Assembly (NCBI GenBank): GCA_947469885.1 | Contig: CANIQT010000009.1 | Span: 1-64,000, forward strand | From: Bacteroidota bacterium | GTDB taxonomy: Bacteria > Bacteroidota > Bacteroidia > 2-12-FULL-35-15 | Direction: 5' to 3' | Length of the DNA: 64,000 bases | Shown here: one piece after another, positions 2,573 through 60,025 of the stretch | How the letters are laid out: every line of letters starts with the position of its first letter | Position numbering within the stretch: the first letter of the stretch is position 1 | Position numbers and translations under genes: made by a program | Notes under the pieces: model-generated | What the model was told of the DNA's origin: nothing | What the model saw: the letters and a program-made list of their open reading frames with translations, nothing else | Databases searched by the model: none

Positions 2573-2640
2573 AAATTCTAAATTCTAAATCCTACATTGT
2601 ACAACAATTATCATTCCTAATTCCTAATTCCTAATTCATA
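2573..2640. repeat. 7-bp tandem repeats between msrB and yifB
   Basis: Two blocks with exact 7-bp period: AAATTCT, AAATTCT, AAATCCT, ACATTGT (2573-2600), and ATTCCTA three times followed by ATTCATA (2613-2640). The second ends a few bases before the yifB stop codon. The same unit recurs at 28245-28272 and inside uvrA. Confidence 0.85.
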
Positions 2641-2646
2641 ATTGAT

Positions 2647-4185
2647 TTACCCAGCCCATCCTTCTCTATCCAAACTCCGATATTGAATTGCTTCAGCCAA
2701 ATGATTGGTTTCTATCTTTTCACTCCCATCTAAATCAGCAATTGTTCGGGCAACTTTCAGTATTCTGTCGTAAGCCCGGGCAGATAAACCCAATCGCTCC
2801 ATCGCAGTTTTTAATAATTGATTTCCGGCTTCATCTATTTTACAAACTTCGCGCAATTGTTTCGAACTAATCTGTGCATTGCAGTGCACACCTTCTTTTG
2901 AGGCATATCTTTTTTCCTGTATTTCTCTTGCTCTCACCACTCGTTCTCTCACACTCACACTTTTTTCTGAAGTCCGCTCGGCCGATAATTCATTAAACGA
3001 AACAGGAGTAACTTCCACATGAATATCAATCCTATCTAACAATGGCCCTGAAATTTTATTCAAATATTTTTGTACCACTCCTGCACCGCACACACATTTT
3101 TTTTCGGGATGATTATAATATCCGCATGGGCAGGGATTCATAGAAGCCACCAGCATAAAACTTGCAGGATATTCCACCGAAAATTTAGCACGCGAAATGG
3201 TCACAACTCTATCCTCTAATGGTTGGCGCATTACTTCCAGCACTGTTCGTTTAAATTCGGGCAATTCATCTAAAAACAAAACACCATTATGTGCCAACGA
3301 AATTTCTCCGGGCTGAGGAACACCACCACCACCAACCAATGCCACATCGCTAATAGTATGATGAGGCGAACGAAACGGACGGGTGGAAACCAACCCGACA
3401 TTTTTTCCCATCTTGCCTGCCACACTGTGAATCTTTGTTGTTTCCAATGCTTCATGCAAATTCATTGGAGGCAAAATAGTAGGCAATCGTTTGGCAAGCA
3501 TTGTTTTTCCTGCTCCCGGAGGACCAATCAAAATAACATTGTGACCACCTGCTGCGGCTATTTCCAATGCCCGCTTAATATTTTCTTGACCCTTTACATC
3601 CGAAAAATCAAACTCTACATCATTTAATTTAGAGAAAAATTCATCTCTGGTATTTACAATAGTTTGTTCCAGTTCAATGTTATCATTAAAAAAATCAATT
3701 ACTTCCATTATGTTTTCTACCCCATACACTTCCAAACCATTAACAATGGCAGCTTCTTTGGCATTTTGTTTCGGAAGAATAATGCCTTTAAACTTTTCTT
3801 CCCGAGCCTGTATCGCAATAGGCAAAACTCCTTTTATAGGCTGCAATCCTCCATCAAGCGACAGTTCTCCCATAATAATATAGTCGTTTACTTTGTCGGC
3901 TTTCATTTGTTGCGAAGCAGCTAAAATGCCAACAGCAATAGTTAAATCGTAAGCAGAGCCTTCTTTTCGAATATCGGCAGGAGCCATGTTGATGACAATA
4001 CTCATGCCTGGCATTTTATGTTTATTGTTTCGCAATGCAGCGTCAATGCGTTTTTCGCTTTCCTTTACAGCACTATCGGGCAACCCAACAAGAAAAAAAT
4101 TCATCCCCGGGTTAATATTTGTTTCCACAGTTACTGTAGTAGCATTAATTCCGTACACCGCACTGCCGTAGGTTTTTACTAACAT
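2647..4185 (-). CDS. yifB: YifB/ComM family Mg-chelatase-like AAA+ ATPase
   Basis: 512 aa from the ATG at 4185 ([13 protein letters not shown], the family's usual N-terminus); the frame's first ATG, 13 codons upstream at 4224, gives an extension without family features. The N-terminal part resembles the ChlI fold (residues about 20-180). The AAA+ core has Walker [10 protein letters not shown] cysteine cluster ([18 protein letters not shown]) and a C-terminal Mg-chelatase domain follow. ComM homologues are helicases that promote branch migration during natural transformation; whether this organism is competent cannot be seen here. It lies downstream of, and divergent from, the T9SS gene at 4298. 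Confidence 0.93.
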
Positions 4186-4297
4186 AAATAATTCGTTTTG
4201 AAAAGTAAGTGAACGAAAGTACAAATTATTTTCAGGAAGAAAAGATTTTGAATATGATTTTATACTAATTTAGTCGCTCAATTTAAAACTTAAACAA

Positions 4298-6319
4298 ATG
4301 AAAAAACTAATTACTCTTACACTTGCATTGGTTGCAGGATTTACAATTACTAAAGCTCAAACATTTTCTGACGATTTCGAAACCTATACAGTAGGTTCTA
4401 AATTAGGTCCTCAATCAGCCGATTGGACAGTTTGGAGCGGAGCAACCGGTGAAAACGGGACTACCGACCCCGATGTTGCTAATACAGATAATCACACAAC
4501 AGGTGGTGCAAAGTCAATTTATTTCAGTTCAACATCTGCCACAGGCGGACCAGTTGATTGTGTATTACCCTTTGGTGGCAGTGTTTTAAACACAGGTCAG
4601 TTTTCGTTTACTGCGTGGTTCAAAGTGCCTTCAACCAAAACGGCTTACTTTAATTTTCAAGGAACACTTCCTCCTTATACAGGTGTTACAATGTACACAC
4701 TCGACTGCTGGCTAAATGCAGATGGAAGTTTGCTTATTGCAAATTCGGGAACACCAGTAATTACTACTACACATCCTGTTGGTTCCTGGTTCGAATTAAC
4801 TATCAATGCCAACTTAAATACAAACAGCTGGGATTTAGTGATTGACGGAATCACCATGGGAACATGGGCTAATGCTATTAATCAGGTAGGTGGTATTGAT
4901 ATTTATCCGGCTGATGCAAATGCAAGTTTTTGGGTAGATGATGTATCTTATAACATTGTGCCTTACACCTTACTTCCTTTAAATGGTGCTGTTACCAATG
5001 TTTCTGTTACTAACGGATTAGTAACTCAACAACGAACTGCAACTGCAATTGTAAGAAATTTGGGAACTACCGCTATCACTTCTTTTGATTTGAATATGGT
5101 TGCAAACGGTACACCAAGCAACCAAAGCGTAACAGGAGTAAACATTGCATCACTTGCTACTTATACGGTTACTGCTACCGCACCTTCTACTTTAATTGCA
5201 GGTGTAAATACGTTTTCAGCAACCATAAGCAATGTAAATGGTTTGGGTGCCGATGGAGATGCAAATGATGATACCAAAACTTTTACCATTACTCCTGTTC
5301 AGGCAGCTACTGGCAAAGTAGTGGTTGCAGAAGAAGCAACAGGTTGCTGGTGTCAGTGGTGCCCTAGAGGTGCTGTTTATATGGAATCAATGGCCACTAA
5401 ATACGATGGATATTTTGCAGGAATAGCAGTACATAATAATGATGTTATTACTGACAGTGCTTATAATGCTTTTATTGCTCCTCAAGTTCCGGGGTTTCCT
5501 TCTGCGTTAGTTGATCGACTTCCAGCTCTTGACCCATCTGCTATGGAGCCTGATTTTTTGACTCGTGTTCAAATTGCTCCAAAAGCTTTTATTACAAATT
5601 CTGAAACATATAACATCGGTACTCGTGCCTTGGATGTAACCATTACTACTACTTTTCAGCAGGCGGTGAGCGGTGATTACCGTTTGGCTTGTGTGTTAAC
5701 CGAAGATGATGTTCATGGAACAACTTCTGCTTATAATCAATCGAATGCTTATGCAGGTGGTGGTTCAGGAGTAATGGGTGGTTTTGAAACATTGCCAAAT
5801 CCTGTTCCTGCTGCTCAAATGTATTACGACCATGTAGCTCGCACCATCTCCCCTGACCCAACTGGAATTCCTAATAACTACGGTGCAAGCACTACAGTGG
5901 GGCAAGTGTTCACCAATACATTTAATTATGTGTTGCCTGCTGCCTGGAACCCTGCAAAAATTCATATTATCGGTTTGTTTATTGACCCAACAGGATTAAT
6001 TGATAATGCTTCTACTTCTATGATTTCGGAAGCGCAGCAAATTGGAATTGCTGAAATGGCTGGAAATAATAACGAAGTAACATTGTACCCAAATCCTTCT
6101 GGCAACAATTCAACTATATATTTGAATCTTCAAAAAGAAGCATCTGTTCAAGTGGCTATCTATAATGTAACCGGAGAATTGGTTGCTAAAAAAGAGTATG
6201 GTAAACTTACCGGTGGAATGATTTTGCCAATTGAATCTTCTCAATTCAGTTCAGGACTTTATTTTGTTAATGTGACGATTGATGGTAAATTAACTACTAA
6301 GAAATTAGTGAAACAATAA
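4298..6319 (+). CDS. Omp28-like secreted protein with T9SS sorting domain
   Basis: 673 aa. Signal peptide MKKLITLTLALVAGFTITKA. Residues about 24-215 look like a concanavalin/LamG-type beta domain. Residues about 345-560 match the Omp28-related family: VVAEEATGCWCQWCPRG carries a CxWC pair in a thioredoxin-like setting. The C-terminal ~75 residues form a type A T9SS sorting domain (VTLYPNPSGN, ending GKLTTKKLVKQ). It should pass the outer membrane by T9SS and end up surface-anchored or released. The target of the Omp28 part is unknown. Two strong hairpins follow the gene, so it is probably transcribed alone. Confidence 0.85.
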   Translation: MKKLITLTLALVAGFTITKAQTFSDDFETYTVGSKLGPQSADWTVWSGATGENGTTDPDVANTDNHTTGGAKSIYFSSTSATGGPVDCVLPFGGSVLNTGQFSFTAWFKVPSTKTAYFNFQGTLPPYTGVTMYTLDCWLNADGSLLIANSGTPVITTTHPVGSWFELTINANLNTNSWDLVIDGITMGTWANAINQVGGIDIYPADANASFWVDDVSYNIVPYTLLPLNGAVTNVSVTNGLVTQQRTATAIVRNLGTTAITSFDLNMVANGTPSNQSVTGVNIASLATYTVTATAPSTLIAGVNTFSATISNVNGLGADGDANDDTKTFTITPVQAATGKVVVAEEATGCWCQWCPRGAVYMESMATKYDGYFAGIAVHNNDVITDSAYNAFIAPQVPGFPSALVDRLPALDPSAMEPDFLTRVQIAPKAFITNSETYNIGTRALDVTITTTFQQAVSGDYRLACVLTEDDVHGTTSAYNQSNAYAGGGSGVMGGFETLPNPVPAAQMYYDHVARTISPDPTGIPNNYGASTTVGQVFTNTFNYVLPAAWNPAKIHIIGLFIDPTGLIDNASTSMISEAQQIGIAEMAGNNNEVTLYPNPSGNNSTIYLNLQKEASVQVAIYNVTGELVAKKEYGKLTGGMILPIESSQFSSGLYFVNVTIDGKLTTKKLVKQ

Positions 6320-6449: not shown

Positions 6450-8900
6450 ATGAAAATTTCTTATAACTGGCTTAAACAATATATAAACACTGAACTTCCG
6501 GTCGAGCAAGTTGGAATACTTCTTACCAACTGCGGATTAGAAGTAGAGAGCATAGAAAAATACGAAACCATAAAAGGCGGTTTGAAAGGAGTGGTTGTAG
6601 GTGAAGTAATGACAAAAGAAAAACATCCCGATGCCGACAGATTGAGTGTAACAACGGTGGATGTGGGCACAGGAACTTTACTAAACATTGTTTGTGGAGG
6701 ACCAAATGTGGCAGCCGGACAAAAAGTGTTGATTGCAACCATTGGTTCTACTATCTATCCTATGACAGGAGAACCATTACAAATTAAAAAATCAAAGATA
6801 AGAGGTGCTGCAAGCGAAGGAATGATATGTGCTGAGGACGAATTAGGACTTGGTGTATCTCATGCAGGAGTAATGGTTTTGGATGCTGATGCAAAAGTGG
6901 GTACTCCTGCAAACGAATATTTTAAAATAGAAGAAGATTTTATTTTTGAAATAGGTTTGACACCTAACCGAGCCGATGCAGCTTCACATATAGGTGTGGC
7001 AAGAGATTTGGCGGTTGCAATAATTTCAAATTTCAAATTTCAAATTTCAAATTCTAAATTGGAGTTGCCCGATGTAAGTGCTTTTCAAGTTGATAGTTCT
7101 AATTTAGTTATTGAAGTTGTTGTTGAAGATAAAATTGCTTGCCCTCGTTATTCAGGACTTTCAATATGTAATATTAAAGTTGCTGAATCTCCTGAATGGC
7201 TTAAAACAAAGTTGAAATCTATTGGTGTAAGTCCCATTAATAATATTGTGGATGTTACTAATTATGTTCTTTTCGAAACTGGTCAGCCGATGCACGCTTT
7301 TGATGCTGATAAAATAATTGGCAAAAAAGTTATTGTAAAAAAACTGACTGATAAAACTAAATTCAAAACGCTGGATGAAGTGGAGCGCGAATTATCGTCA
7401 GAAGATTTAATGATTTGTAATGCTGAAAATGCCATGTGTATTGCTGGTGTATATGGAGGAATTGAGTCAGGTGTTACGGAAAAGACAGCAAATATATTTT
7501 TAGAATCTGCTTATTTTAATTCTACTTCCATTCGTAAAACTTCCAAACGTCATGGTTTGAAAACAGATGCTTCCTTTCGTTACGAAAGAGGAACTGACCC
7601 TAATATTACTGTTTATGCTTTAAAGCGCGCTGCATTATTAATTAAAGAAATTGCAGGAGGAGAAATTTCTTCTGAGATAATTGATATTTATCCTAAGAAA
7701 ATTGAGAATTTAAAAGTTCCTTTTTCATTTCAAAAATGTGAAGAACTGATTGGAAAACACATTGACCTGGAAATAGTAAAAAGTATTATCATTTCGCTTG
7801 GTATCGAAATAGCTCACGAAGGACATGATGCACTGTTGCTTTCTATTCCTCCATTTAAAGTGGATGTAACCCGCGAACAGGATGTGATAGAAGAGGTGCT
7901 TCGTATTTATGGATATAATAATATTGAAATTCCAACTACATTAAATTCTTCTATTTCCAATTCAGAAAAACCAGACAAACAAAAGATTCAAAACATAGTT
8001 TCTGAATTGTTGAGTAATAATGGGTTTTCGGAGATGATGTGTTTATCTTTAACCAAAGGTGAATACGCCACCAAACTAAAATCATTAAGCGAGGACAGAA
8101 GTGTGGCGATGATGAATCCCTTGAGTACCGACTTAAATGTGCTTCGTCAAACCCTCTTGTTTAGCGGGCTCGAAACAATAGCCTATAATCAAAACAGAAA
8201 AAATGCAGATTTGAAAATGTATGAATTTGGTAAAACCTACATGGCAATTAAAAATGATACGACCACAAAATACATTGAAACAAAACATTTATCTCTATTT
8301 ATCACCGGAAGAAAAAACGAAGAAACATGGAACGAAAAAAACAATGCTGTAAATTTTTATACCCTGAAAGGTATTGTTATAGCCATATTGCAACGGCTTG
8401 GGATTAATGATGCACGTACCACAGAAATAAATAATGATGCTTTTTCATCGGGATTAAGTTTCAATTTCAATAAAAAAACAATAGTTGAATTTGGTTCTGT
8501 TTCTAAATCTGTTTTAAAATTAATGGACATTAAACAGGAAGTTTTTTATGCTGACTTCAACTGGGATTTAATTATTGATGCTGTAAAGAAATCTAATATT
8601 CAATATTCTGAAGTACCTAAATTCCCTGAAGTAAGACGCGACTTAGCATTACTAATTGACAAAGCTATACAGTTTGAACAACTGGAACAATTGGCTTATC
8701 AATCGGAAAAAAGTATTTTGAAATCAGTAAATTTATTTGATGTTTACGAGGGCGACAAACTTCCTTCCGACAAAAAATCGTATGCGTTAAGTTTTATGTT
8801 GCAAGACGAAACGGCTACTCTCACTGATAAACAAATTGAGAAAACAATGGATAAGTTGATGAAGGTATTTAAAGAAAAGGCGGGGGCGGAGATACGTTAA
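6450..8900 (+). CDS. pheT: phenylalanyl-tRNA synthetase beta subunit
   Basis: 816 aa, full length. It charges tRNA-Phe together with PheS, which is not in this window. Domains in order: EMAP-like tRNA-binding domain (about 40-150, VVGEVMTKEKHPDADRLSV), B3/B4 editing region, B5 (about 400-480), and C-terminal FDX-ACB domain (about 720-816, EVPKFPEVRRDLALLID). Residues about 192-203 (SNFKFQISNSKL) are encoded by five 7-bp repeats (7023-7057) and look like an in-frame insertion in a linker after ARDLAVAI. It has its own promoter and follows a strong terminator. Confidence 0.97.
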   Translation: MKISYNWLKQYINTELPVEQVGILLTNCGLEVESIEKYETIKGGLKGVVVGEVMTKEKHPDADRLSVTTVDVGTGTLLNIVCGGPNVAAGQKVLIATIGSTIYPMTGEPLQIKKSKIRGAASEGMICAEDELGLGVSHAGVMVLDADAKVGTPANEYFKIEEDFIFEIGLTPNRADAASHIGVARDLAVAIISNFKFQISNSKLELPDVSAFQVDSSNLVIEVVVEDKIACPRYSGLSICNIKVAESPEWLKTKLKSIGVSPINNIVDVTNYVLFETGQPMHAFDADKIIGKKVIVKKLTDKTKFKTLDEVERELSSEDLMICNAENAMCIAGVYGGIESGVTEKTANIFLESAYFNSTSIRKTSKRHGLKTDASFRYERGTDPNITVYALKRAALLIKEIAGGEISSEIIDIYPKKIENLKVPFSFQKCEELIGKHIDLEIVKSIIISLGIEIAHEGHDALLLSIPPFKVDVTREQDVIEEVLRIYGYNNIEIPTTLNSSISNSEKPDKQKIQNIVSELLSNNGFSEMMCLSLTKGEYATKLKSLSEDRSVAMMNPLSTDLNVLRQTLLFSGLETIAYNQNRKNADLKMYEFGKTYMAIKNDTTTKYIETKHLSLFITGRKNEETWNEKNNAVNFYTLKGIVIAILQRLGINDARTTEINNDAFSSGLSFNFNKKTIVEFGSVSKSVLKLMDIKQEVFYADFNWDLIIDAVKKSNIQYSEVPKFPEVRRDLALLIDKAIQFEQLEQLAYQSEKSILKSVNLFDVYEGDKLPSDKKSYALSFMLQDETATLTDKQIEKTMDKLMKVFKEKAGAEIR
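7023..7057. repeat. 7-bp repeats inside pheT
   Basis: Four perfect ATTTCAA units and one ATTCTAA, 35 bp in all, within the reading frame of pheT. Related heptamer units lie before pruA (52639-52666). Confidence 0.9.
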
Positions 8901-12927: not shown

Positions 12928-15030
12928 TTAGTAATTCAACAACTCCCCAATTGCTTTCGCAACCTTAGTTGCGTTGGGCAACATGGTTGTTTCCAAAGTT
13001 GAATTCAAAGGAATGGCAGGTAAATTTTCAGCACCAATGACTTCAACAGGAGCATCCAGAAATTCAAAACATAATTTCGAAATTCTTCCTGCCAGTGCCT
13101 GTGCAAATCCATTGTTATAAGGTTCTTCGGTAAGTACCATACATCTCCCATGTTTTATTACAGAAGCTAAAATGGTTTCTTCATCTAATGGCATGAGTGT
13201 ACGCAAATCAATTATTTCTACCTGTTCAGGAAAATCTTTTGCAGCATTTTTTGCCCAATATACTCCCATTCCATAAGTAATTATTGTGATTGTTGATTGT
13301 TGATTGTTGATTGTTGATTGTTGAACAACCCTTGCTTTTCCAAGCGGAATAATATAATCTTCATCTGGCTCAATTGTTTTTGCATCCTCTGTTCCTTTTA
13401 TTTTACTCCAATAAAGCCCTTTGTGTTCAAGCATGATTACAGGGTTAGGATCATAATAGGCAGCTTTCATCAACCCTTTCAAATCAGCACCTGTAGAAGG
13501 ATAACATATTTTTATTCCACGAATATTTGCCAGCACACTTTCCACACTTGACGAATGATAAGGACCACCACTACCATAAGCACCAATTGGCACACGGATA
13601 ATACAGCTCACAGGCCATTTGCCATTTGACAAATAACACGAACGGCTTACTTCAGTAAACAACTGATTTAGTCCGGGCCATATATAATCTGCAAACTGCA
13701 CTTCCACGATAGGTTTGCAGCCTGTGGCACTCATGCCCACTGTACTACCAATAATAAATGCTTCCTGAATAGGAGTATTAAAAACACGATGGTCGCCATA
13801 CGTTTGTGCTAATGTAGCTGCTTCACGAAACACTCCGCCCAGTCTGCCACCCACATCTTGTCCGTAAAGCAAACATTCAGGATGTTTTGCCATCAGTTCG
13901 CGAATCGCAAACAAAGCCGAATCTACCATTACTGTTTTTTCTTTGCCTGCCGGTTCCCGCTCTCCTTTTTCTTCGGTAACAGGAGTTGGCACAAAATCAT
14001 AATTAAATAAATCTTCGGGGCGGGGGTCTTCGGCAACCAATGCTTTTTGATAATCTTCTTCCACTTTTTCCTTAGCTCGCTTTTCAATCTCCTTTAATTC
14101 TTTCTCTTCAAAACCACTTGCCAGCATATAATTGCGCAGTTTCGGAAAAGGGTCTTTTGTTTGCGCTTCTTCCAAATCATCTCTGTACCACTCTTTACGA
14201 ACGCCCGAAGTATGATGATTGAGCAACGGAACTTTTGCATGAATCAAAAATGGTCTCCGCTCTTTGCGAATTATTTCTATGACTTCTTTTATGGTGTTAT
14301 AACATCTCTCAAAATTAGTTCCGTCAATAGTGCGTGTTTCCAGCCCTTTAAAGCCTCTTGCATATTCCGTTGCATCCTGCGCTCGTATCTCTTTTGCACT
14401 TGCCGAAATGTCCCATTCGTTATCCTGAACCAAATAAAGTATCGGCAATTTTTTTAATACTGCCATTTGAAATGCCTCCGAAACCTCACCTTCGGTAATA
14501 CATGCATCACCTAAAGAACAAACTGCAATTGCCCGCTCTTCTTCCTCTCCTTTGGAGATGGTTGAGGTGAGGTTCATTTTTTCTAAATATTGAATTCCCA
14601 TTGCAGCCCCTGTAGTGGGTATCGCCTGCATCCCTGTAGCACTCGACTGCATTGGAATTTTAGGCATATCATCTCTCTTCAAACTTGGATGACAATAGTA
14701 TAAACGCCCACCACTAAATGGGTCATCTCGTTTTGCCATCAATTGAAGCATCAACTCGTACGGCTTTATCCCAATGCCAAGCAACATACTGTCATCACGA
14801 TAGTATGCCGACAAAAAATCCTGTGGTTTCAATTGCAAACCCATCGCCAATTGTATTGCCTCATGTCCACGGGAAGTAGCATGTACATATTTTGCGGTTA
14901 CTTCTTTATTGGTTTCATATAGTTCAGTCATTGCTTTTGCTGTAAACATTAGCTCAAAAGCTTTCACTAATATTTCTTCATTAATAGAAGAATTTATTTT
15001 TCGTTTTTTATCTGTCATTATTTCCTGCAT
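12928..15030 (-). CDS. fused 2-oxoacid dehydrogenase E1 (alpha-beta), ThDP-dependent
   Basis: 700 aa. The N-terminal half (about 15-340) is E1-alpha, with the thiamine diphosphate motif beginning GDACITEGEVSEAF; the C-terminal half (about 365-700) is E1-beta (ALFAIRELMAKHPECLLYGQDVGGRLGGVF). It decarboxylates a 2-oxo acid and passes the acyl group to an E2 lipoyl protein; the branched-chain complex is most likely in Bacteroidota, but the substrate is not certain. Two in-frame repeat-derived insertions are visible: residues 152-165 (LTSTISKGEEEE) from a palindromic element, and 570-581 (QQSTINNQQSTI) from 7-bp repeats. An alternative ATG lies at 15018. Confidence 0.9.
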   Translation of the reverse strand: MQEIMTDKKRKINSSINEEILVKAFELMFTAKAMTELYETNKEVTAKYVHATSRGHEAIQLAMGLQLKPQDFLSAYYRDDSMLLGIGIKPYELMLQLMAKRDDPFSGGRLYYCHPSLKRDDMPKIPMQSSATGMQAIPTTGAAMGIQYLEKMNLTSTISKGEEEERAIAVCSLGDACITEGEVSEAFQMAVLKKLPILYLVQDNEWDISASAKEIRAQDATEYARGFKGLETRTIDGTNFERCYNTIKEVIEIIRKERRPFLIHAKVPLLNHHTSGVRKEWYRDDLEEAQTKDPFPKLRNYMLASGFEEKELKEIEKRAKEKVEEDYQKALVAEDPRPEDLFNYDFVPTPVTEEKGEREPAGKEKTVMVDSALFAIRELMAKHPECLLYGQDVGGRLGGVFREAATLAQTYGDHRVFNTPIQEAFIIGSTVGMSATGCKPIVEVQFADYIWPGLNQLFTEVSRSCYLSNGKWPVSCIIRVPIGAYGSGGPYHSSSVESVLANIRGIKICYPSTGADLKGLMKAAYYDPNPVIMLEHKGLYWSKIKGTEDAKTIEPDEDYIIPLGKARVVQQSTINNQQSTITIITYGMGVYWAKNAAKDFPEQVEIIDLRTLMPLDEETILASVIKHGRCMVLTEEPYNNGFAQALAGRISKLCFEFLDAPVEVIGAENLPAIPLNSTLETTMLPNATKVAKAIGELLNY
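13288..13322. repeat. 7-bp repeats inside the E1 gene
   Basis: Five perfect GATTGTT units (35 bp) in frame with the E1-beta half, encoding the Gln/Asn-rich stretch at residues 570-581. Confidence 0.9.
14536..14574. repeat. palindromic element inside the E1 gene
   Basis: On the coding strand it contains CCTCACCTCAACCATCTCC then AAAGGAGAGG, closely matching the CCTCACC...CTCC/GGAG palindromes between the AsmA-like gene and aroC (23310-23462). Encodes residues 152-165. Confidence 0.65.
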
Positions 15031-23464: not shown

Positions 23465-24562
23465 TTACATCTTATTCGTTTTACTTCTCAATAAAAAATC
23501 TACCATCACCAATGCCGCCATTGCTTCCACAATGGGTACAGCACGAGGCACTACACAAGCATCGTGCCGTCCTTTTCCGTGCATCTCCACTGCTTCTCCT
23601 TTATTATTTATGGTGTCTTGCTTTTGCATAATAGATGCCACAGGTTTAAATGCTACTCTAAAATAAATATCTTCTCCATTGCTTATTCCTCCCTGTATTC
23701 CTCCACTATGATTGGTTTTTGTTCTTACTTCTCCGTTCTCCGTTCTCCGTTCTTCCGACTCTACAAACACATCATTATGCTCACTCCCCTTCATTTTCAC
23801 TCCTTCAAATCCACTGCCAAATTCAAAACCTTTTACAGCATTTATACTCAACATTGCTTTTCCCAAATCGGCATGAAGCTTATCAAACACAGGCTCACCA
23901 AGTCCGGCAGGAGTTCCTGTTATTACACAACTAATAATTCCACCGATGGTATCTCCTGTTTTTTTTATTTGTTCGATGTGATGAATCATTGTCTCCGCAA
24001 TCAATTCGTCAGGACAACGAACTGCATTTGTTTCTGTTTTTGTTAAATCCAAATCATGAACATCTTTCAATAATTTTATTTCGCCAACCTGAGAAGTATA
24101 AGCATTAACAGTAATTCCATGTTGTTTCAAAATTAATTTGGCAATTGCACCACCAACCACTCTGCTCACTGTTTCTCTTGCAGATGAACGACCTCCACCA
24201 CGATAATCTCTTATTCCATATTTTGCTTCATACGTGTAATCGGCATGAGATGGGCGATACACATCTTTTATATGTTCGTAATCTTTTTCTTTTTGATTTT
24301 CATTTTTAATAATAAAACCTATTGGTGTGCCGGTTGTAATACCATTAAATATACCCGACAAAAATTCAACTGTATCACTTTCTTTGCGTTGTGTTACTAT
24401 ACTTGATTGTCCTGGTTTACGTCTGTCCAATTCTTTTTGCACAAAATCAACATCCACAGTTAATCCCGCAGGACAACCATCAATCACCCCGCCCATAGCT
24501 ACCCCATGCGATTCGCCAAAAGTGGTAAGTGTAAATAGTTTTCCGAAAGAGTTGCCGCTCAT
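23465..24562 (-). CDS. aroC: chorismate synthase
   Basis: 365 aa. It makes chorismate from 5-enolpyruvylshikimate-3-phosphate, the last shared step of aromatic amino-acid synthesis, using reduced FMN. Signature segments visible: [18 protein letters not shown] near the N-terminus, [21 protein letters not shown] near residue 125, and the C-terminal [20 protein letters not shown]. Residues 269-280 ([12 protein letters not shown]) are encoded by 7-bp repeats and sit just before [16 protein letters not shown]; they look like a short insertion in a variable loop. Its promoter lies about 100 bases upstream of the start. Single gene; no other aro gene is nearby. Confidence 0.97.
23722..23757. repeat. 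7-bp repeats inside aroC
   Basis: TTCTTAC, TTCTCCG three times, then TTCTTCCG: five units over 36 bp, in frame with aroC residues 269-280. Confidence 0.85.
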
Positions 24563-25737: not shown

Positions 25738-26168
25738 GATTTTAATATTTAAGGTTTATTTATTGTTTATTGTTACTTATAGTAATAGTTGTTATTCTCC
25801 TTGATTATCGTGCGGTGCACCTATATCGCTTCCCGAAGCGATATACCTGAAACTTGTTACACCTATATCGCGTCCCGAAGCGATATGCCTGAAACGTGTT
25901 ACACCTATATCGCGTCCCAGAGCTATATGCCTGAAACGTGTTACACCTATATCGCGTCCCGGAGCTATATACCTGAAATGTGTTACACCTATATCGCGTC
26001 TCGAAGCGAAGTACCTGAAACTTGTTACACGGATATCAACTTTGAAGGCGATAAGTATGAACCAAATTTTAACATTCCAACCCTTTTGTGTTTTCTTCTG
26101 TTTTTTATGTAAAGACTGTTGTTTTTTTTTAACGGTTCAAAATTGTAGAATATAGTTTAATTAAAAAC
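25738..26168. other. divergent intergenic region with 42-bp array
   Basis: Apart from the tandem array (25818-26027) and its trailing partial unit, this stretch holds AT-rich DNA. The plus-strand open frame through the array (25789-26112) is a repeat translation (YTYIASRSDMPETC per unit) and is not accepted as a gene. Confidence 0.6.
25818..26027. repeat. five 42-bp tandem units with palindromic core
   Basis: Units start at 25818, 25860, 25902, 25944 and 25986 with exact 42-bp spacing; a sixth decays after CACGGATATC (26028). Unit 1 contains a perfect dyad, ATATCGCTTC and GAAGCGATAT around CC; in the other units the dyad is partly degraded. Most differences between units change the amino acid in the open frame, arguing against a selected protein. 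It lies between the orphan gene and the HxlR-type regulator. Confidence 0.92.
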
Positions 26169-28233: not shown

Positions 28234-28244
28234 CACCAAACAAT

Positions 28245-28272
28245 AATTCCTAATTCCTAATTCATAATTCCC
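28245..28272. repeat. 7-bp repeats abutting a start codon
   Basis: AATTCCT, AATTCCT, AATTCAT, AATTCCC: four units that end exactly where the TTG start of the DEAD-box gene begins (28273), so they form its 5' leader. Confidence 0.85.
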
Positions 28273-31018: not shown

Positions 31019-31043
31019 AAAAAACACAAAACACAAATAACAA

Positions 31044-35849: not shown

Positions 35850-37672
35850 TGTCAAAAGAAAATAAAATAACCGGCAAAGCAGTCGACTTCAAAATACTTC
35901 GTAGAATTGTTTCTTATGGCAGAGCTTACAAAGCAAACTTTGCATTGGCTGTATTGGCAACTGTTACCTTTGCGTTCATTTCCCCTGTTCGTCCTATCAT
36001 TATTCAATATACATTCGATAATTTTGTGGCAAAACATAATCCTGAAATGCTTTTTAACATGACCATGATACTTGTCGGGTTATTAATACTAGAAGCCTTC
36101 ATGCAATTTGCCGATTCCTTCCTCACCAATCGTCTCGGACAAAACATAATAAAAGATTTACGAATTCAACTTTACTCCCACATCACCACATTGCGATTGA
36201 AATATTACGACAACACACCAATCGGTGCACTCGTTACTCGTGCCGTATCCGACATCGAAGTGGTGGCAGACATGTTTTCTGACGGACTCATTTCCATCAT
36301 TGGCGATTTGCTGAAACTCTTTGTCATACTCGGTGTAATGTTATTTCTCAATTACAGGCTAACATTAATCATACTTATCCCCATTCCTTTTTTATTAATT
36401 GCCACTTGGATATTCAAAAGAGCGGTTGCAGCTTCCTTTCAGGATGTGCGTACACAAGTAGCCCGCCTCAATGCCTTTGTACAGGAACACATCACAGGCA
36501 TGAACATCGTTCAGATATTTAATCGGGAAAAAGCAGAATCCCAAAAGTTTGACGAAATAAATACCAAACACCGAGATGCAAACATCCGTTCCATAAAAGC
36601 GTATTCCATTTTTTTTCCTGTTGTCGAAATCCTTTCGTCCGTTTCCCTTGGTTTACTCGTTTGGTGGGGTGGAAAAGAAATTTTGAAAGGCATCACCTCC
36701 ATGGGGCAGTTAGTCGAATTCATTATGTTCCTCAACATGATGTTTCGCCCCATTCGCCAATTAGCAGACCGTTTCAATACCCTCCAGATGGGAATGGTTT
36801 CTTCCGAGCGGGTCTTCAAAGTGCTCGATACTCACGAAATTATCGAAAACAAAGGCACTCACAATGCAGCCAATATAAAAGGAGATGTAGAAATAAAAAA
36901 TCTTTGGTTTGCTTATAACACTTCACCCCTTTCCTTTATTCAAGGAGAGGGGCAGGGGGTGAGGTCCAACCAAGATTGGGTCCTAAAAAATGTTTCTTTC
37001 TCTGTTAAACAAGGACAAACAGTTGCTCTCGTTGGTGCAACAGGTGCAGGCAAATCTTCCATCATCAATCTTCTCAACCGCTTTTACGAATACAACCAAG
37101 GCTCCATAACCATTGACGGTATTGACGTTCGCGATTACGAACTTTCTTCTCTCCGAAAAAACATCGGTGTGGTGTTGCAGGATGTTTTCCTCTTTTCCGA
37201 TTCTCTTGCCAATAATATTTCCTTAAACAATCCCGATATTTCCTTAGAAAAAATTATTGAATCAGCTAAAATCGTGGGTGCTCACCATTTTATTTCCAAG
37301 CTCCCAAACACTTATAATTACAATGCAATGGAGCGAGGTGCTATGCTATCGGTCGGGCAGCGCCAACTCATTTCTTTCATTCGTGCTTATGTTTATAATG
37401 CCCGCATTCTTGTCCTGGACGAAGCCACTTCTTCCATCGATACCGAATCCGAAAAGTTGATTCAAAATGCCATTGATATACTTACCAAAAATCGTACTTC
37501 CATCATCATTGCCCACCGTCTTGCTACCATCCAAAAAGCCGATAAAATTATTGTGCTCGACAAAGGCGAAATCATCGAAACTGGAAATCATCAGGAACTA
37601 CTTAAACTCAACGGACACTACAAACGCTTGTTCGAATTACAGTTTAAAGAGGAAGTGGTCCATCATTCCTAA
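35849..37672 (+). CDS. ABC exporter (fused permease-ATPase, MsbA-like)
   Basis: 607 aa. Membrane domain with six helices (about 25-320), then the nucleotide-binding domain (about 345-600): Walker A GATGAGKSS, Q-loop LQDVFLFSD, signature LSVGQRQL, Walker B ILVLDEATSS, and the switch His in AHRLAT. It works as a homo- or heterodimer that exports a lipid, peptide or drug; the substrate is unknown. Residues 358-374 (SPLSFIQGEGQGVRSNQ) lie between FAYN and WVLKNVSF, where relatives have only a short turn; they are encoded by a palindromic repeat (36921-36965). It starts 71 bases after truA. Confidence 0.93.
   Translation: MSKENKITGKAVDFKILRRIVSYGRAYKANFALAVLATVTFAFISPVRPIIIQYTFDNFVAKHNPEMLFNMTMILVGLLILEAFMQFADSFLTNRLGQNIIKDLRIQLYSHITTLRLKYYDNTPIGALVTRAVSDIEVVADMFSDGLISIIGDLLKLFVILGVMLFLNYRLTLIILIPIPFLLIATWIFKRAVAASFQDVRTQVARLNAFVQEHITGMNIVQIFNREKAESQKFDEINTKHRDANIRSIKAYSIFFPVVEILSSVSLGLLVWWGGKEILKGITSMGQLVEFIMFLNMMFRPIRQLADRFNTLQMGMVSSERVFKVLDTHEIIENKGTHNAANIKGDVEIKNLWFAYNTSPLSFIQGEGQGVRSNQDWVLKNVSFSVKQGQTVALVGATGAGKSSIINLLNRFYEYNQGSITIDGIDVRDYELSSLRKNIGVVLQDVFLFSDSLANNISLNNPDISLEKIIESAKIVGAHHFISKLPNTYNYNAMERGAMLSVGQRQLISFIRAYVYNARILVLDEATSSIDTESEKLIQNAIDILTKNRTSIIIAHRLATIQKADKIIVLDKGEIIETGNHQELLKLNGHYKRLFELQFKEEVVHHS
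36921..36965. repeat. palindromic element inside the ABC exporter gene
   Basis: CTTCACCCCTTTCCTTTATT then CAAGGAGAGGGG and GGGGGTGAGG: the same layout as the elements at 23310-23362 and 23416-23462 (CTCACC arm, CCTT/AAGG core, GGTGAGG arm). In frame, residues 358-374. Confidence 0.8.
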
Positions 37673-38001
37673 TTCTGTCATTCTGAGCTTGTCGAAGGAC
37701 CTAATTCCTTTTTCAATTCAATTCCAACATCTTTCCAATCTCAACTCACATCTTTCAAATCAAATTTGACATCGTTGCGTTCCCTTCCTTAATCCTCCAC
37801 ACCCCTTTACCATAAGGCGTTTCCAGCCAACATGCCAAATTCGAGCCATTTTGGCACATTTTTACTCCCAATAAGATTGTTCTGCTAATTTCTTTACTTT
37901 TTAAGACCCCAAAAAGTAGTTTTCTCCTGTAGTTTGCCTTTTGCCTATTCCCTAATTACTAATGCCCAATGACCAATGACCAATGCCAAATGACCAATTC
38001 C
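37673..38001. other. gene-free interval made largely of repeats
   Basis: No gene. It holds GTCATTCTGAGC followed by TTGTCGAAGGAC (37677-37700), a sequence type often seen as an interspersed bacterial repeat, a unique T/C-rich middle, and a heptamer array (37951-37999) that ends at the uvrA stop. Confidence 0.6.
37951..37999. repeat. 7-bp repeats downstream of uvrA
   Basis: Seven units of exact 7-bp period: CCTAATT, ACTAATG, CCCAATG, ACCAATG, ACCAATG, CCAAATG, ACCAATT. They end three bases from the uvrA stop codon. Confidence 0.85.
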
Positions 38002-40956
38002 TCAAATCTTCCCCTTCAAATACTCCCCCGTATAACTCCCTTTGCAATTAATCAAATCCTCAGGTGTCCCCTCAAAAACAATATTTCCTCCCCCGCTCCC
38101 TCCCTCAGGTCCCAAATCAATAACCCAGTCAGCGCACTTAATAATCTCCGCATTATGCTCTATCACAATCAAACTATGCCCCTGTTTCACCAACGCATTA
38201 AAAGCAAATAGCAATTTCGAAATATCATGAAAATGCAAACCCGTAGTAGGCTCATCAAAAATAAACAAAGTAGCAGCCACACTCGTTTGCCCAATTCCCA
38301 AAAACGAAGCCAGCTTTATCCGTTGCGCCTCCCCGCCACTAAGTGTCGAACTGCTCTGTCCCAGATGCACATAACCCAGCCCCACATCCATCAACGGCTG
38401 CAACTTCTGTACAATCTTCCGCAAGGTAGCATTCGGCTTATCACCCCTCGCAAAAAAATCAATCGCCTCTTCCACGGTCATATCCAGCACATCCGAAATG
38501 TTCTTATCATTATACATCACCTCCAGAATCTCCGCCTTATACCGCTTACCATTACAAGCCTCACACACCAGATGAATATCCGCCATAAACTGCATCTCAA
38601 TCTGCACTTCACCTTCCCCTTCACACACCTCACACCTTCCCCCGTCCACATTAAACGAAAACGAAGAAGGCTTATAACCACGGTGTTTAGCCAATCCTTG
38701 GTCGGCATACCATGCCCGTATTTCATCATACGCTTTTACATACGTCACCGGATTAGACCGCGTACTGCGCCCTATCGGGTTTTGGTCAATCATCTCCACA
38801 GCGTGAACACTGGTATAATCTCCACTCAATTTGTCAAAACTACCCGTTTGCTCCCCAAACCCACCATGTATTTTTTTCAAAGCAGGATACAACACTCGTT
38901 TTACCAACGATGTCTTCCCGCTCCCCGAAACTCCCGTCACCACAGTTATCGTATTCAATGGAAATTTAACCGTCACATTCTTCAAATTATTTTCCCGAAC
39001 TCCTGCCACCTCAATAAAATGGTTCCAGTTTCTTCTCCGCTCGGGCACCGCTATCTTTTCTTTCCCGTTCAAATACAAAGCCGTCAAACTCCTTTCTTCC
39101 CGTTCCAGCTCCGCATGATTCCCCTGAAACACCAGCTCTCCTCCATGTGTACCAGCCATCGGACCAATATCTATTACCTCATCAGCCGCCCGCATAATCT
39201 CCTCATCATGCTCCACCACAATCACCGTGTTGCCAATATCCCTCAACCGGTAAAGCACTTTTATCAATCGCTCCGTATCGCGGCTATGCAACCCAATACT
39301 AGGCTCATCCAAAATATACATAGACCCAACAAGGCTACTGCCCAATGATGTCGCAAGATTGATACGTTGACTCTCCCCACCCGATAAGGTATTTGATAAA
39401 CGATTCAACGTCAAATAACCCAGACCAACATCATTCAAAAACCCCAAACGATTAGTAATTTCAACCAATATTCGCTTACCAACTTCCGTGTCAAATTTAT
39501 TTAATTTAATTTCTTTAAAAAATTTCCACGCATTACTCACCGGCATCAGCACAATATCATTAATACTTTGCTCGTTTACCTTCACATACGTTGCATCCTT
39601 TCTCAATCGAGTGCCCATACACTCCGGACAAACTGTTTTTCCGCGATAGCGAGATAACATTACGCGATATTGAATTTTATAAGATTCCACTGTTAAATGT
39701 GTAAAAAAAGCATTCAATCCTTCAAAATATTTATTTCCGGTCCAAAGCAATTTTTTTTCTTCCGCAGATAAATCATAGTAAGCACGATGAACCGGAAAAT
39801 CAAACTTGTGCGAATTATTCACCAGCATATTTTTCCACTCCACCATCTTCTCACCTTTCCAGCAAACAATAGCTTCTTCAAACACCGATAGGTTTTTATT
39901 CGGAATTACCAAATCCAGATCAATGCCAATTACGCTACCAAATCCCTCACACCGTTTGCAAGCACCTATCGGATTATTAAAACTAAAAAAGTGAGTACTC
40001 GGCTCTTCAAACGTCATTCCGTCCAATTCAAACTTATTAGAGAAAAGGCGGTTGTTGGCTGTTTGTTGTTTGTTGTCGGTTGGTGCAGCTGTTATCTTTT
40101 TACTTCCCGCTTTCAACTTTGGACTTTCAACTTTCAACTTTGAACTTTTCTCTTTCCCCTTTTTACTCTCCTCTTCATTCCTAATTCCTAATTCATAATT
40201 CATAATTGAAATCACGCATTCCCCTTCCCCTTCATAAAAAGCAGTCTGCACCGAATCCGAAATCCTGTTATCATTATCTTCATCATCGGGTCGAACAGTT
40301 AAACGGTCAACCACAATATAAATTTGTTCTTTCTCCGAAAATTTTGTTTCAATAAATTCTTCCAGCTTATGCACCAAACCGTTTTGCTGAACACGGGTAA
40401 AACCTTGTTGCCCCAGCAACTCCAATTGTTTCTTAAATGTTTTGTCAAATTGTTTTTTTAGTGGAGATAAAATCAAAAACTTAGTATCTGCTTTTAACGA
40501 ACTGATATACTTAGCCACATCCTCCACCGTATCTCGCTTCACCTGATGACCCGACACAGGCGAAAAAGTTTTTCCTATTCTTGCAAACAACAATTTAAGG
40601 TAATCATATATTTCTGTAGAAGTACCCACTGTGGAGCGGGGGTTGCGCGAGTTTACTTTTTGTTCAATAGCAATAGCAGGCGAAATACCTTTTATATAAT
40701 CCACTTCAGGTTTATCTATTCGCCCCAAAAACTGACGGGCATAAGACGAAAGACTTTCCACATATCTCCGCTGACCTTCTGCATATAGCGTATCAAAAGC
40801 CAAAGACGACTTCCCCGAACCCGACAAACCAGTAATCACCACCAATTTATTTCTCGGAATAGCCACATCAATATTCTTAAGGTTATGCACTCGCGCGCCT
40901 TTAATAATGATATATTCCTTTGAACTTAATTCTTCTATCAGCTTCTGTTTTGCCAT
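38002..40956 (-). CDS. uvrA: excinuclease ABC subunit A
   Basis: 984 aa, somewhat longer than the usual ~940. It is the damage-recognition ATPase of nucleotide-excision repair. First Walker [10 protein letters not shown], second GVSGSGKTS; two ABC signatures ([18 protein letters not shown]); zinc-binding cysteine pairs in [17 protein letters not shown] and CEVCEGEG...CEACNGKR. Residues about 250-302 are an insertion ([15 protein letters not shown]..., ending NKQQTANNR) encoded entirely by heptamer repeats (40051-40207), lying before the conserved [12 protein letters not shown]. The repair core is intact, so the insertion is presumably tolerated as a loop. Divergent from the sigma factor. Confidence 0.97.
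40051..40207. repeat. long 7-bp repeat block inside uvrA
   Basis: Two phased blocks. 40051-40085: GTTGTTG, GCTGTTT, GTTGTTT, GTTGTCG, GTTGGTG. 40110-40207: fourteen consecutive units without slip, first CTTTCAA-type (CTTTCAA, CTTTGGA, CTTTCAA, CTTTCAA, CTTTGAA), later CCTAATT and CATAATT. Three unit families share one phase. All of it is translated in uvrA. Confidence 0.92.
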
Positions 40957-54319: not shown

Positions 54320-54417
54320 TTAGGAATTAGGATTAAATGATTAAGGATTAAATTAATTTAGGATTTAGGATTGGTATTGCCATAATCTGTATTTAAAATC
54401 CTTAATTCCTAATTCTA
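54320..54417. repeat. inverted pair of 7-bp arrays between convergent genes
   Basis: Left arm 54320-54368, seven units such as TTAGGAA, TTAGGAT, TTAAGGA, GATTTAG. Right arm 54397-54417, AATCCTT, AATTCCT, AATTCTA, in the opposite orientation and including the stop codon of the next gene. The arms are roughly complementary and could fold back. Confidence 0.8.
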
Positions 54418-55415: not shown

Positions 55416-55694
55416 GTTAACCTTTTTTTAAGAGGGTAAGGGCGGAAACGAAAAACGGGAATGCGGAAAACTAAAGAGGAAGTGCGAAAACCATCGGGGC
55501 AAGAACGGAAATGAAAAAAGGAGGAGCGGAAATGAAAAAAGGAGGAGCGGAAATGAAAAACGGAGGAGCGGAAATGAAAAGAGGAAGAGCGGAAATGAAA
55601 AACGGAAGAGCGGAAATGGGAAAAGGAAGAGCGGAAATCATTGGGGCAAGACCGAAAGCCTTTAGGGCAAGACCGGAAATGCAAAAAGGTTAAC
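55416..55694. repeat. twelve 21-bp tandem units flanked by a 12-bp inverted repeat
   Basis: Units run from 55442 to 55693 with exact 21-bp steps and no indel. The commonest is GCGGAAATGAAAAACGGAAG plus A. The last three change to versions with GGGCAAGACC. GTTAACCTTTTT (55416-55427) and AAAAAGGTTAAC (55683-55694) form a perfect inverted flank; TAAA lies two bases outside both. Open frames through the array on either strand (7-residue repeats such as GAEMKKG) are by-products. The 161 bases left of it (55255-55415) hold no gene. Confidence 0.92.
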
Positions 55695-58039: not shown

Positions 58040-58045
58040 CAGCAA

Positions 58046-58084: not shown

Positions 58085-59452
58085 ATGAAAGTACATCTTA
58101 TCGCCATTGGCGGTAGTGCAATGCACAACATGGCAATTGCCATGCACAAAAAAGGTTTTACAGTTACAGGTTCTGATGATGAAATACTCGAGCCTTCCAA
58201 AAGTCGTTTAGCCAAATATAATTTACTACCAGCAAAAATTGGTTGGAATGTAAGTGCTATTCGCAGCGAATTAGATGCAGTAATCCTAGGTATGCACGCC
58301 CGTGCGGATAATCCGGAATTAATAAAAGCACAGGAATTAGGTTTAAAAATATATTCTTATCCCGAATACATTTACGAACAAACGAAAGATAAAACAAGAA
58401 TTGTGGTGGGTGGAAGTCATGGTAAAACAACAATTACAGCCATGATACTTCACGTTTTACATTTTCATAACATTGATTGCGACTATTTGGTAGGAGCACA
58501 GTTGGAGGGGTTTGACACCATGGTGAAACTTTCTAAAGAAGCAAAGATAGCGGTGATTGAAGGAGATGAGTATCTTTCATCACCTATAGACAGAAGACCA
58601 AAGTTTCATTTATACAAACCTAACATTGCTATTCTTAGTGGCATTGCCTGGGACCATATTAATGTGTTTCCCACTTTTGAAAATTATGTAGAGCAGTTCA
58701 AAATATTTATTGATTTGATAGAACCTAACGGAAGCCTTGTGTATTGCGAGTTAGATAAGGAAGTAAAAAAAGTTTGTGAAACAGCAAGAGCAGACATAAA
58801 GAAAATGCCTTATTCAATCCCTCCACATAAAATTGAAAATGGAATTACAATTTTATCTTCCCAACAACTAACAACCAATAACTATCAACTAAACATTTTC
58901 GGAGACCACAACCTAATGAACCTAAACGGTGCCCGATTGGTTTGCAATCAAATTAATATTACCGATAAAAAATTTTACGAAGCAATACAAAGTTTCAAAG
59001 GGGCTGCAAAACGTCTGGAATTAGTAAAGAAGAATAATGTGACTGCGGTGTATAAAGATTTTGCTCATTCTCCATCCAAACTAAAAGCAACTACACAAGC
59101 TGTTAAAAAACAATTTCCAAACCGACAATTAACTGCCTGTATGGAACTGCATACTTTTAGCAGTTTGAACGAAGATTTCCTAAAAGAGTACGATGGATCA
59201 ATGGCATTGGCTGATGAGGCAATTGTTTATTTTAATCCACACACCATCGAACATAAAAAATTAAAAGCAATTACCGAAGAGCAGGTAAAAAAGGCATTTG
59301 GCGGTGGCAATGTGAAAGTTTATACCAACTCCAAACAATTGCTTGAAGATTTATTGAAAATGAATTTCAAAAACAAAAACCTGTTAATGATGAGTTCCGG
59401 TAACTTTGACGGAATTGATTTTAAAGAGTTGGGAGAGGAGGTAGTGAAATAG
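58085..59452 (+). CDS. mpl: UDP-N-acetylmuramate--tripeptide ligase (Mpl)
   Basis: 455 aa. A Mur ligase that attaches the recycled tripeptide L-Ala-D-Glu-mDAP to UDP-MurNAc. N-terminal Rossmann part MKVHLIAIGGSAMHNMAIAM, ATP motif GGSHGKTT, central VIEGDEYLSSPID, C-terminal DFAHSPSKLKATTQA. The HNMAIA start separates Mpl-like enzymes from MurC. Residues about 260-271 (SQQLTTNNYQLN) are encoded by five 7-bp repeats, before the conserved IFGDHNLMN. Confidence 0.9.
   Translation: MKVHLIAIGGSAMHNMAIAMHKKGFTVTGSDDEILEPSKSRLAKYNLLPAKIGWNVSAIRSELDAVILGMHARADNPELIKAQELGLKIYSYPEYIYEQTKDKTRIVVGGSHGKTTITAMILHVLHFHNIDCDYLVGAQLEGFDTMVKLSKEAKIAVIEGDEYLSSPIDRRPKFHLYKPNIAILSGIAWDHINVFPTFENYVEQFKIFIDLIEPNGSLVYCELDKEVKKVCETARADIKKMPYSIPPHKIENGITILSSQQLTTNNYQLNIFGDHNLMNLNGARLVCNQINITDKKFYEAIQSFKGAAKRLELVKKNNVTAVYKDFAHSPSKLKATTQAVKKQFPNRQLTACMELHTFSSLNEDFLKEYDGSMALADEAIVYFNPHTIEHKKLKAITEEQVKKAFGGGNVKVYTNSKQLLEDLLKMNFKNKNLLMMSSGNFDGIDFKELGEEVVK
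58862..58896. repeat. 7-bp repeats inside mpl
   Basis: CAACAAC, TAACAAC, CAATAAC, TATCAAC and a decaying fifth unit, in frame with mpl. Confidence 0.75.
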
Positions 59453-59454
59453 AT

Positions 59455-59967
59455 TTAGTTTTCACTAAACGGAATCGTAGGATTTTTCTTTCTCAAAATT
59501 GCACTCGATAATAATGACAAAATAACTCCCATTATTACAGTTGACATAAACATACGGAACGAACCAAAATAACTCCTGATTACTTCCATGTTTTTTCCAA
59601 TTTCTTCTTCTTTTACTTTTGCATCCTGCATGGTTTTTTTCGCTTCGTTCAAAAAGTAATCAACAGCATCCACTGCAATAAACTTATAATATAGAAAATT
59701 GAATATCCCTAAAAACGCAGCCAACACAAGAGTATAAAGAAACCCTGTTTTCAATCCTTCTTTAAAATGAATAAATCCGTTTTGATTTTTACGCTCGAAA
59801 TAAATGGAAATAAAAATGCCGATAAGCAGAAGTAACAAGGTTACATAATACCGATATTGGTCAACAGCGATGGTATAATTGCCGAATATTTTTGAAAAAA
59901 CAAACCATGCAATGCAATTTATTACCCCAGCCCCTATTCCTAATTTAACATTTAATGGAAGTTTCAT
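59455..59967 (-). CDS. DUF4199 membrane protein
   Basis: 170 aa with four membrane segments (about 8-28, 38-55, 75-95, 137-157). The pattern (FIHFKEGLKTGFLYTLVLAA) is typical of DUF4199, a Bacteroidota family of unknown function. It converges on mpl with two bases between the stops and is followed upstream by rho in the same direction. Confidence 0.85.
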   Translation of the reverse strand: MKLPLNVKLGIGAGVINCIAWFVFSKIFGNYTIAVDQYRYYVTLLLLLIGIFISIYFERKNQNGFIHFKEGLKTGFLYTLVLAAFLGIFNFLYYKFIAVDAVDYFLNEAKKTMQDAKVKEEEIGKNMEVIRSYFGSFRMFMSTVIMGVILSLLSSAILRKKNPTIPFSEN

Positions 59968-59983
59968 CTTATTCCTTTTTTAT

Positions 59984-60025
59984 CTAATACCAACTAATGA
60001 ACCAATGACTAATCACCAATGAACT
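59984..60025. repeat. 7-bp repeats downstream of rho
   Basis: Units such as CTAATAC, CAACTAA, TGAACCA, ATGACTA, ATCACCA, ATGAACT fill the gap between rho and the DUF4199 gene and touch the rho stop codon. Confidence 0.75.

Follow-up and report, generated by a model that had tools for sequence, protein, structure and literature searches.

Dispersed heptanucleotide tandem arrays in a Bacteroidota genome, including variable loops of housekeeping genes

Dispersed tandem arrays with an exact period of seven bases are present genome-wide in an uncultured bacterium of the phylum Bacteroidota (NCBI GenBank assembly GCA_947469885.1; 4.07 Mb in 50 contigs, 91% complete; G000 or the source genome below), a 64-kb stretch of which, contig 9 (CANIQT010000009.1, positions 1 to 64,000; hereafter, the window), had earlier been interpreted from its sequence alone. 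The heptamer load is species-specific, being about seven- to tenfold higher in the source genome than in the four sampled congeners. In addition, judging from alignments with relatives, heptamers appear to have overwritten some loops of housekeeping genes at constant length, a hint that mutation may act locally in an unusual way.

Results

The sample of the source genome comprised 464 kb (11% of the genome), namely, the window and 400 kb from parts of two large contigs, and is non-random. Counting exact lag-7 runs with at least 11 matches, we found 39 runs at period 7, while periods 5, 6 and 8-13 average 2.1 (periods 3, 4, 5 and 6 gave 5, 5, 1 and 6 runs, and periods 8 to 13 gave 4, 2, 0, 1, 3 and 0, respectively); with 39 runs compared to 6 and 4 at the neighboring lags 6 and 8, the genome-wide excess postulated in the sequence-only reading is borne out. 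The multiples of seven are raised as well (24 runs at period 14 and 69 at period 21), and under mismatch-tolerant scoring, the same DNA has 74 lag-7 segments, while lags 4-6 and 8-13 have 0-16 each, lag 14 has 42 and lag 21 has 41. Within the window, where runs with at least 10 matches were counted, there are 13 exact lag-7 runs against 0-2 at each other lag from 2 to 13, with 4 at lag 14 and 11 at lag 21. These runs occupy 12 places when the overlapping pair at 40177-40207 is counted once, so the earlier figure of about twelve loci stands in number, and the units ATTCCTA, ATTTCAA, GATTGTT, TTCTCCG, CTTTCAA and ACCAATG all lie where they had been placed; their uniform exactness does not stand, given that two of the runs are near chance and the last two loci are degenerate, with the CAACTAA locus (58863-58892) showing 73% matches at period 7 in Tandem Repeats Finder (TRF) and the locus at 59992-60027 being assigned a period of 15. 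When the repetitive segments of the source genome were masked, no lag-7 excess was detectable, the match fraction at lag 7 (0.2702) falling between those at lag 4 (0.2817) and lag 10 (0.2616); the period-7 signal is therefore confined to discrete arrays, and a diffuse lag-7 effect beyond them was rejected. Short lag-7 runs are likewise in excess in this sample, and an argument from array length, based on a lack of short doublets, was dropped for that reason.

The arrays draw on a limited set of units. The 48 runs with at least 10 matches in the 464 kb fall into 27 unit classes, and 14 of them belong to AATTAGG, the largest class; none of 3000 draws under either of two null models produced a class as large as this one, which counts 12 loci. 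In the whole source genome, the AATTAGG doublet has 67 matches compared to 2 for the reversed control, the AATGACC doublet is found at 24 places, AACAATC at 21, including bshC and the PDH-like gene discussed below, and GTCCAAA at 14; the reversed control of AACAATC is the doubled CAACTAA unit, itself matched 39 times. Locus counts from such doublet listings (44, 20, 12 and 10) were made by hand, 44 being the loci of AATTAGG and 12 those of AACAATC. Over-representation of the single copy is small, with 968 AATTAGG observed against 802 expected, 197 of the former in repeats. Thus, the units cannot be called unrelated, as they had been, with the main one at 67 doublet places and three others at 14-24, and the proposal that the length but not the sequence is conserved holds only for its first half: seven is constant, but the recurrence of a few units at numerous loci shows that the sequence is not arbitrary.

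The distribution of units among relatives is uneven. The AATTAGG doublet was detected in 8 of 35 congeners, among which G005 has 6 matches and G032 has 15 in one array, and AATGACC in 14 of 149 genomes of the class, the source genome included. The GTCCAAA doublet is found in G005 (6), G026 (5), G014 (2), G012 (2) and G017 (1), whereas the remaining 30 congeners lack it. By pheT, the five species closest to the source are G005, G026, G012, G014 and G004, of which the last alone is without GTCCAAA, so the unit set is partly a clade-level property, strongly amplified in G000. The reversed AATGACC control is a heptamer doublet too and was matched 32 times in G101 and 4 times in G131; other genomes, these two among them, seem to have their own dominant heptamers.

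In DNA that is about 90% coding, by the simple length rule used here to define open reading frames (ORFs), 21 of the 39 arrays are intergenic (P = 1e-11). The remaining 18 are inside ORFs, including variable loops of pheT, a PDH-like gene, aroC, uvrA, truB and bshC, and tilS is arrayed likewise, which upholds the earlier view that the repeats enter genes, several of these being housekeeping genes. The genes were identified by family models (TIGR00472 for pheT, NF003793/TIGR00033 for aroC, and models for uvrA, bshC, truB and rho) or by domain matches (the PDH E1-like gene, which encodes a fused protein, and tilS). By eye, a few arrays stand just before terminator-like hairpins or start codons, and no shared flanks or ends were seen among the 39. 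The AATTAGG arrays at G000 C1:98196 and C2:46367 adjoin a PNPATN motif close to the C-terminal end of proteins 568 and 640 amino acids long, a region that resembles a type IX secretion sorting domain.

Examination of the same loops in relatives, on loci cut out by search (30 each for truB, aroC and pheT and 29 for the PDH-like gene, not every match being used), revealed different units. The uvrA loop carries CTTTCAA, ATTCCTA and TGTTTGT types in the source genome, AATTAGG, AAATTTC and AAATCTG types in locus L006, where the runs were placed in the loop by both translation and DNA, and an AAAAGTC type in locus L004. In the truB loop, there are AAGAATC and AACAACC in the source, AAATCCG and, by eye, GAGGTCG in G026, AAAAGTC in G016 and CCAACAT in G001. 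The same 18-residue loop of aroC harbors GAACGGA in the source, AAGTCCA in G005 and, in G026, a degenerate stretch that by eye is partly seven-periodic; bshC contains ATCAACA in the source and ATTACAG/ATTACAA in G014; and the PDH-like loop has AACAATC in the source and one shared unit, AATGGAA, in both G011 and G016. Loops that tolerate change thus take up heptamers again and again, and the unit taken up differs from species to species. There are exceptions, namely, the array at C2:100746 (1 of the 39), which corresponds to conserved protein sequence in G010 and G011, and the tilS array, which was not counted as a replacement because it is present in a decayed form in G026; in five congener loci, moreover, a TTTTGAT-type run is found at or flanking aroC. 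For the most part, however, the arrays are not shared, so that the sites are common to relatives but contain other units or none there, a pattern distinct from the ordinary conservation that the sequence-only reading had named as one refuting outcome. C-rich, partly palindromic stretches of the CCCCTCTCC...GGAGAGGGG type were observed in the uvrA loop of locus L008 and in the aroC loops of G035 and G013; other repeats thus use the same landing places.

A single 7-base step shifts the reading frame, and arrays of unchanged length in core genes are therefore hard to reach by plain slippage. The PDH-like loop consists of 19 amino acids in the source genome and in 17 of 28 congener loci, all 17 without a lag-7 run of at least 10 matches; bshC has the same length in the source as in G005, G026, G014 and G004, and so does the aroC loop in the source, G005 and G026. 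Two isoleucine residues of bshC, separated by 21 bases, are present in each of the five species that were compared, which makes selection on the protein probable at this site. The unchanged length would reflect either length-neutral copying or selection that kept rare compensated events.

The congener samples spanned 220-420 kb each, from unmatched regions and with one genome per species, and by the count of runs with at least 11 matches, period-7 runs reach 84.1 per Mb in the source genome compared to 11.9 in G010, 12.5 in G011, 8.3 in G009 and 9.1 in G026. A cyanobacterial sample (400 kb of plasmids from seven strains) gave 75 per Mb, probably an upper estimate because the stretches were chosen around BLAST hits, and two further Bacteroidota picked by one unit gave 50 (G060) and 10 (G146), the latter being low despite the 8 AATGACC doublet places for which it was chosen. 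The load is therefore sporadic. Even in the low-load G011, period 7 is weakly ahead, its 5 runs comparing with 0-3 at the remaining periods up to 20. In the 200 kb of G060, runs of period 8 (22) outnumber those of period 7 (10) at the same threshold.

Inside the arrays of the source genome, there are 14- and 21-base higher-order repeats, which point to multi-unit copying. The uvrA segment 40103-40207 can be divided into 15 heptamers without an indel, although lag 7 is uninformative on the phase between different units, and the step from CTTTCAA to ATTCCTA has a phase rank of 4 (0 being best and 3 expected), outside the best phase, contrary to the earlier claim that several families in uvrA share a single phase for 14 units. 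Over eight neighboring pairs in the source genome, the mean rank is 2.0 and the best phase is found in 4, so a common phase between different adjoining units finds no support there. The best phase was seen in all six cyanobacterial pairs and in the sole pair of G060, but four of the six and the G060 pair differ by one base and overlap or abut. An inverted partner within 200 bp was found for 19 of 140 array loci pooled from eight samples against 3 of 140 in the complement control (P = 0.0005); in the source genome alone, the numbers are 5 of 62 against 2 of 62, and 15 of 74 against 9 of 74 in a looser test.

Part of the period-21 excess in the source genome is due to separate 21-bp arrays, distinct from the heptamers. 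Such tandem arrays, with many unrelated units, occur in the window at 1876-1925 and 55501-55680, and the one at 25818-26037 has 42-bp units; by eye, several of the 21-bp units have a palindromic core. Runs of period 21 with at least 14 matches number 46 in the 464 kb of the source and 22 in 220 kb of G026, and fewer than 3 in each of G009, G010 and G011. Among 23 period-21 loci of the source (runs of at least 12), 15 are without heptamer substructure, and 8 of these 15 are intergenic.

Arrays of the window

The first two arrays of the window are intergenic, a TAAATTC array at 2572..2598 (exact lag-7 run of 12; also reported by TRF) and one of ATTCCTA, which belongs to the AATTAGG class, followed by ATTCATA at 2613..2643 (run of 18). 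Three arrays in variable loops follow: an AAATTTC-class array on the forward strand of pheT (7022..7060; ORF 6450-8900; run of 25; TIGR00472; placed by loop alignment), an AACAATC-class array on the reverse strand of the PDH E1-like gene (13287..13324; ORF 12928-15030; run of 31; E1_dh and transketolase domains) and an AACGGAG-class array on the reverse strand of aroC (23729..23753; ORF 23465-24562; run of 18; NF003793/TIGR00033). A TAATTCC/TAATTCA array at 28244..28271 (run of 13) is intergenic, upstream of an ORF with a DEAD domain, a DEAD-box helicase, and two weak arrays, AAAACAC at 31021..31037 and ATTTAGG at 54356..54372 (runs of 10), are near chance.

The uvrA gene (reverse strand) accounts for three arrays, a degenerate GGTTGTT/TGTTTGT array at 40050..40082 (TRF; lag-7 segment with a score of 16), the CTTTCAA-type array of the insertion loop at 40103..40148 (run of 12; defined by alignment to relatives) and, in the same loop, ATTCCTA followed by ATTCATA at 40177..40207 (runs of 11 and 12). 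Just beyond the uvrA stop codon lies a mixed array of TTTGCCT, ATTCCCT, AATTACT, AATGCCC and AATGACC (37933..37998; degenerate lag-7 segment with a score of 33). Toward the end of the window, there are a degenerate AACAACT array at 58863..58892 in a Mur-ligase-like gene (ORF 58085-59452; Mur ligase domains; the TRF match of 73% given above) and, where rho reaches its stop codon (59981..60029), a degenerate stretch similar to AATGACC, identified by direct reading (TRF period 15; Rho). Beside heptamer arrays, at 37661-37710 of the window and also inside truB at G000 C1:127500, we observed a short repeat-like stretch of the CATTCTGAGCTTGTCGAAGGAC type; stretches of this type are common in other metagenome-assembled genomes.

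Discussion

The closest known counterparts of these arrays appear to be the heptanucleotide short tandemly repeated repetitive (STRR) sequences of cyanobacteria, which likewise have a period of 7, are dispersed and come in several units. AATGACC, which we take to be the TTGGTCA unit of the STRR, heads the units of the cyanobacterial plasmid sample, with 7 of 36 runs, and ranks second in the source genome, with 4 of 48; the main unit of the latter, AATTAGG, is different. The two unit lists have three classes in common, all of one family (P 0.006-0.015), and near matches show no excess (9 against 9.0), so a common vocabulary beyond this one family is unsupported. The best match of the mixed array beyond uvrA is to a Nostoc plasmid (82.5% over 57 bp), and its 87 matching records, which include 46 from Enterococcus, 11 from Nostoc, 7 from Rhizobium and 5 from Shewanella, are not only cyanobacterial; a 66-base query from another array had no match in the plasmids.

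Heptamer repeats in bacteria, five Bacteroidetes included, are already in print (PMC4679880, PMC4692102). According to the first report, TAACTGA direct repeats occur in marine Beggiatoaceae, cyanobacteria and five Bacteroidetes, so the statement that a Bacteroidota counterpart is poorly described was too strong; like the arrays described here, these are dispersed heptamers with a sporadic distribution, found in some Bacteroidetes beside other heptamers (PMC4679880). In the main genome of that report, related heptamers are seldom repeated and the coding copies lie mainly at protein ends, whereas in the source genome several units coexist, inside core proteins (PMC4679880). A survey cited there finds heptamers to be the most abundant class in most genomes (PMC4679880). 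TAACTGA is absent from the 27 exact-run classes in the 464 kb searched, the remaining genome not being covered, and one degenerate segment contains two separate copies of it. The long simple sequence repeats (SSR), or GGGAATC repeats, of Xanthomonas and Nostoc share the heptamer excess, the many degenerate arrays and the extensive change between close species, but are G-rich, of the G-quadruplex type and described as intergenic (PMC4692102). Among the matches listed in our literature searches for in-frame heptanucleotide repeats, nothing was closer than PMC4679880. Within this limited search, what may be new is the burst of many units in one species of Bacteroidota and the constant-length replacement of loops with different units in sister species.

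The scenario that we favor, with about as much doubt as confidence, is that these are dispersed heptanucleotide repeats of the cyanobacterial STRR or long-SSR kind that went through a species-specific burst, by 7-base slippage, spread of patches in trans and selection combined. Arrays would grow, shrink and become homogenized by 7 bases or by several units (14, 21) through misalignment during copying, while a small, partly clade-inherited set of units would reach new sites in trans, as suggested by the recurrence of units and by length-neutral replacement. The spread would most likely proceed via short single-strand patches that are poorly annealed to the lagging-strand template and then copied in, which would explain replacement at constant length, and selection would keep harmless arrays, that is, those that are intergenic or that occupy length-tolerant protein loops with the frame preserved. 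Short-patch double illegitimate recombination, a description of which was not found in the literature searched, would replace short stretches by others from elsewhere in the genome with little change in length. The proposed spread step would resemble this process; replacement at constant length was seen in the PDH-like, bshC and aroC loops, but not in uvrA, truB or the PDH-like loops of G011 and G016. In this scenario, the arrays would be mutational debris with no dedicated machine and presumably no function, although some may have been co-opted.

Several observations weigh against this scenario. The aroC loop is six residues shorter in 17 of 30 congener loci, which implies that its longer form arose by a gain at some stage; pheT of the source genome is one residue shorter than those of G005, G026 and G004 (in the wider count of loop lengths over congener loci, 3 of the 30 pheT loci were left unparsed); uvrA and truB are longer in the source than in relatives; and the PDH-like loops of G011 and G016 are longer by 14 residues, that is, six heptamers. 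Loops under selection for length could retain only rare length-neutral combinations of ordinary events. Without AATTAGG, the recurrence of units at multiple loci in the 464 kb reaches borderline significance with the stricter of the two null models (P = 0.06), although it is strong with the looser one. One genome per species was compared, so gain and loss of arrays were not directly seen, and slippage by itself does not give a reason for 7 over 6 or 8.

Conceivably, a length-neutral process writes 7-base-periodic patches from a genome-specific unit set, maintained at other loci, over tolerant DNA, so that the surface loops of housekeeping proteins are rewritten independently in sister species with the frame kept, but we would sooner doubt this proposal than accept it. 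The published explanation for heptamer excess in bacteria is polymerase slippage that acts locally and favors steps of 7 bases; taken alone, with every array grown from a separate seed and nothing passed from site to site, it strikes us as rather improbable here. It would accommodate the 14- and 21-base higher-order structure, the weak lead of period 7 in G011 and the over-representation of heptamers in many bacteria and the proposed polymerase-contact length of 7 (as cited in PMC4679880, PMC4692102); however, one unit at 67 places, or a class of 12 loci that random draws never reach, is unexpected from independent seeds and makes local 7-base slippage alone insufficient, and the frame-shifting 7-base steps are at odds with the constant length of the aroC, bshC and PDH-like arrays. 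That the arrays are, or travel in, small mobile elements akin to repetitive extragenic palindromes or miniature inverted-repeat transposable elements, the inverted pairs being the recognizable form, appears unlikely: the pooled excess of inverted partners and the insertion-like gains in uvrA, truB and the G011 and G016 PDH-like loops speak for such elements, but the excess dwindles in the source genome taken alone, no common flanks or ends were discerned among the 39 arrays, and constant-length replacement is unlike insertion.

The binding and templating mechanisms invoked in the sequence-only reading fare worse. Selected binding or regulatory sites, at the DNA or RNA level, as proposed for TAACTGA in Beggiatoaceae, would agree with the intergenic bias and with the few arrays before hairpins or start codons, but the 27 unit classes, the 18 of 39 arrays in ORFs, the lack of visible common flanks and the large difference in load between congeners make this quite unlikely. 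Copying of a 7-base template by a reverse transcriptase or a telomerase-like enzyme would yield an exact period and several units differing at few positions; nevertheless, no RVT_1 match was detected in the source genome, which is 91% complete, so that an enzyme too distant for RVT_1 or encoded in the missing part is still conceivable. Of the 36 genomes of the genus, 17 have an RVT_1 match, the low-load G009 and G010 one each and G011 and G026 none; because the source genome lacks a match while low-load relatives have one, and because many units and 14- and 21-base higher-order repeats fit one template poorly, we consider this mechanism very improbable. Finally, chance or protein-level conservation, to which the array at C2:100746, the TTTTGAT-type run at aroC and the decayed tilS array of G026 could be ascribed, is hardly credible and is refuted for the array set as a whole by the 0-6 runs at the other periods from 3 to 13.

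To our knowledge, there is no tested answer to the question why heptamers dominate among the long repeats of many bacteria. The genus described here offers a contrast, in that one species exceeds four sampled congeners in load by a factor of about seven to ten while the same genes can be compared in all of them. For telling slippage from length-neutral copying, arrays in core genes are far more useful than intergenic ones, since a single step of 7 bases puts such a gene out of frame. Should the replacement of loops be confirmed, it would provide conserved proteins with new peptide sequence.

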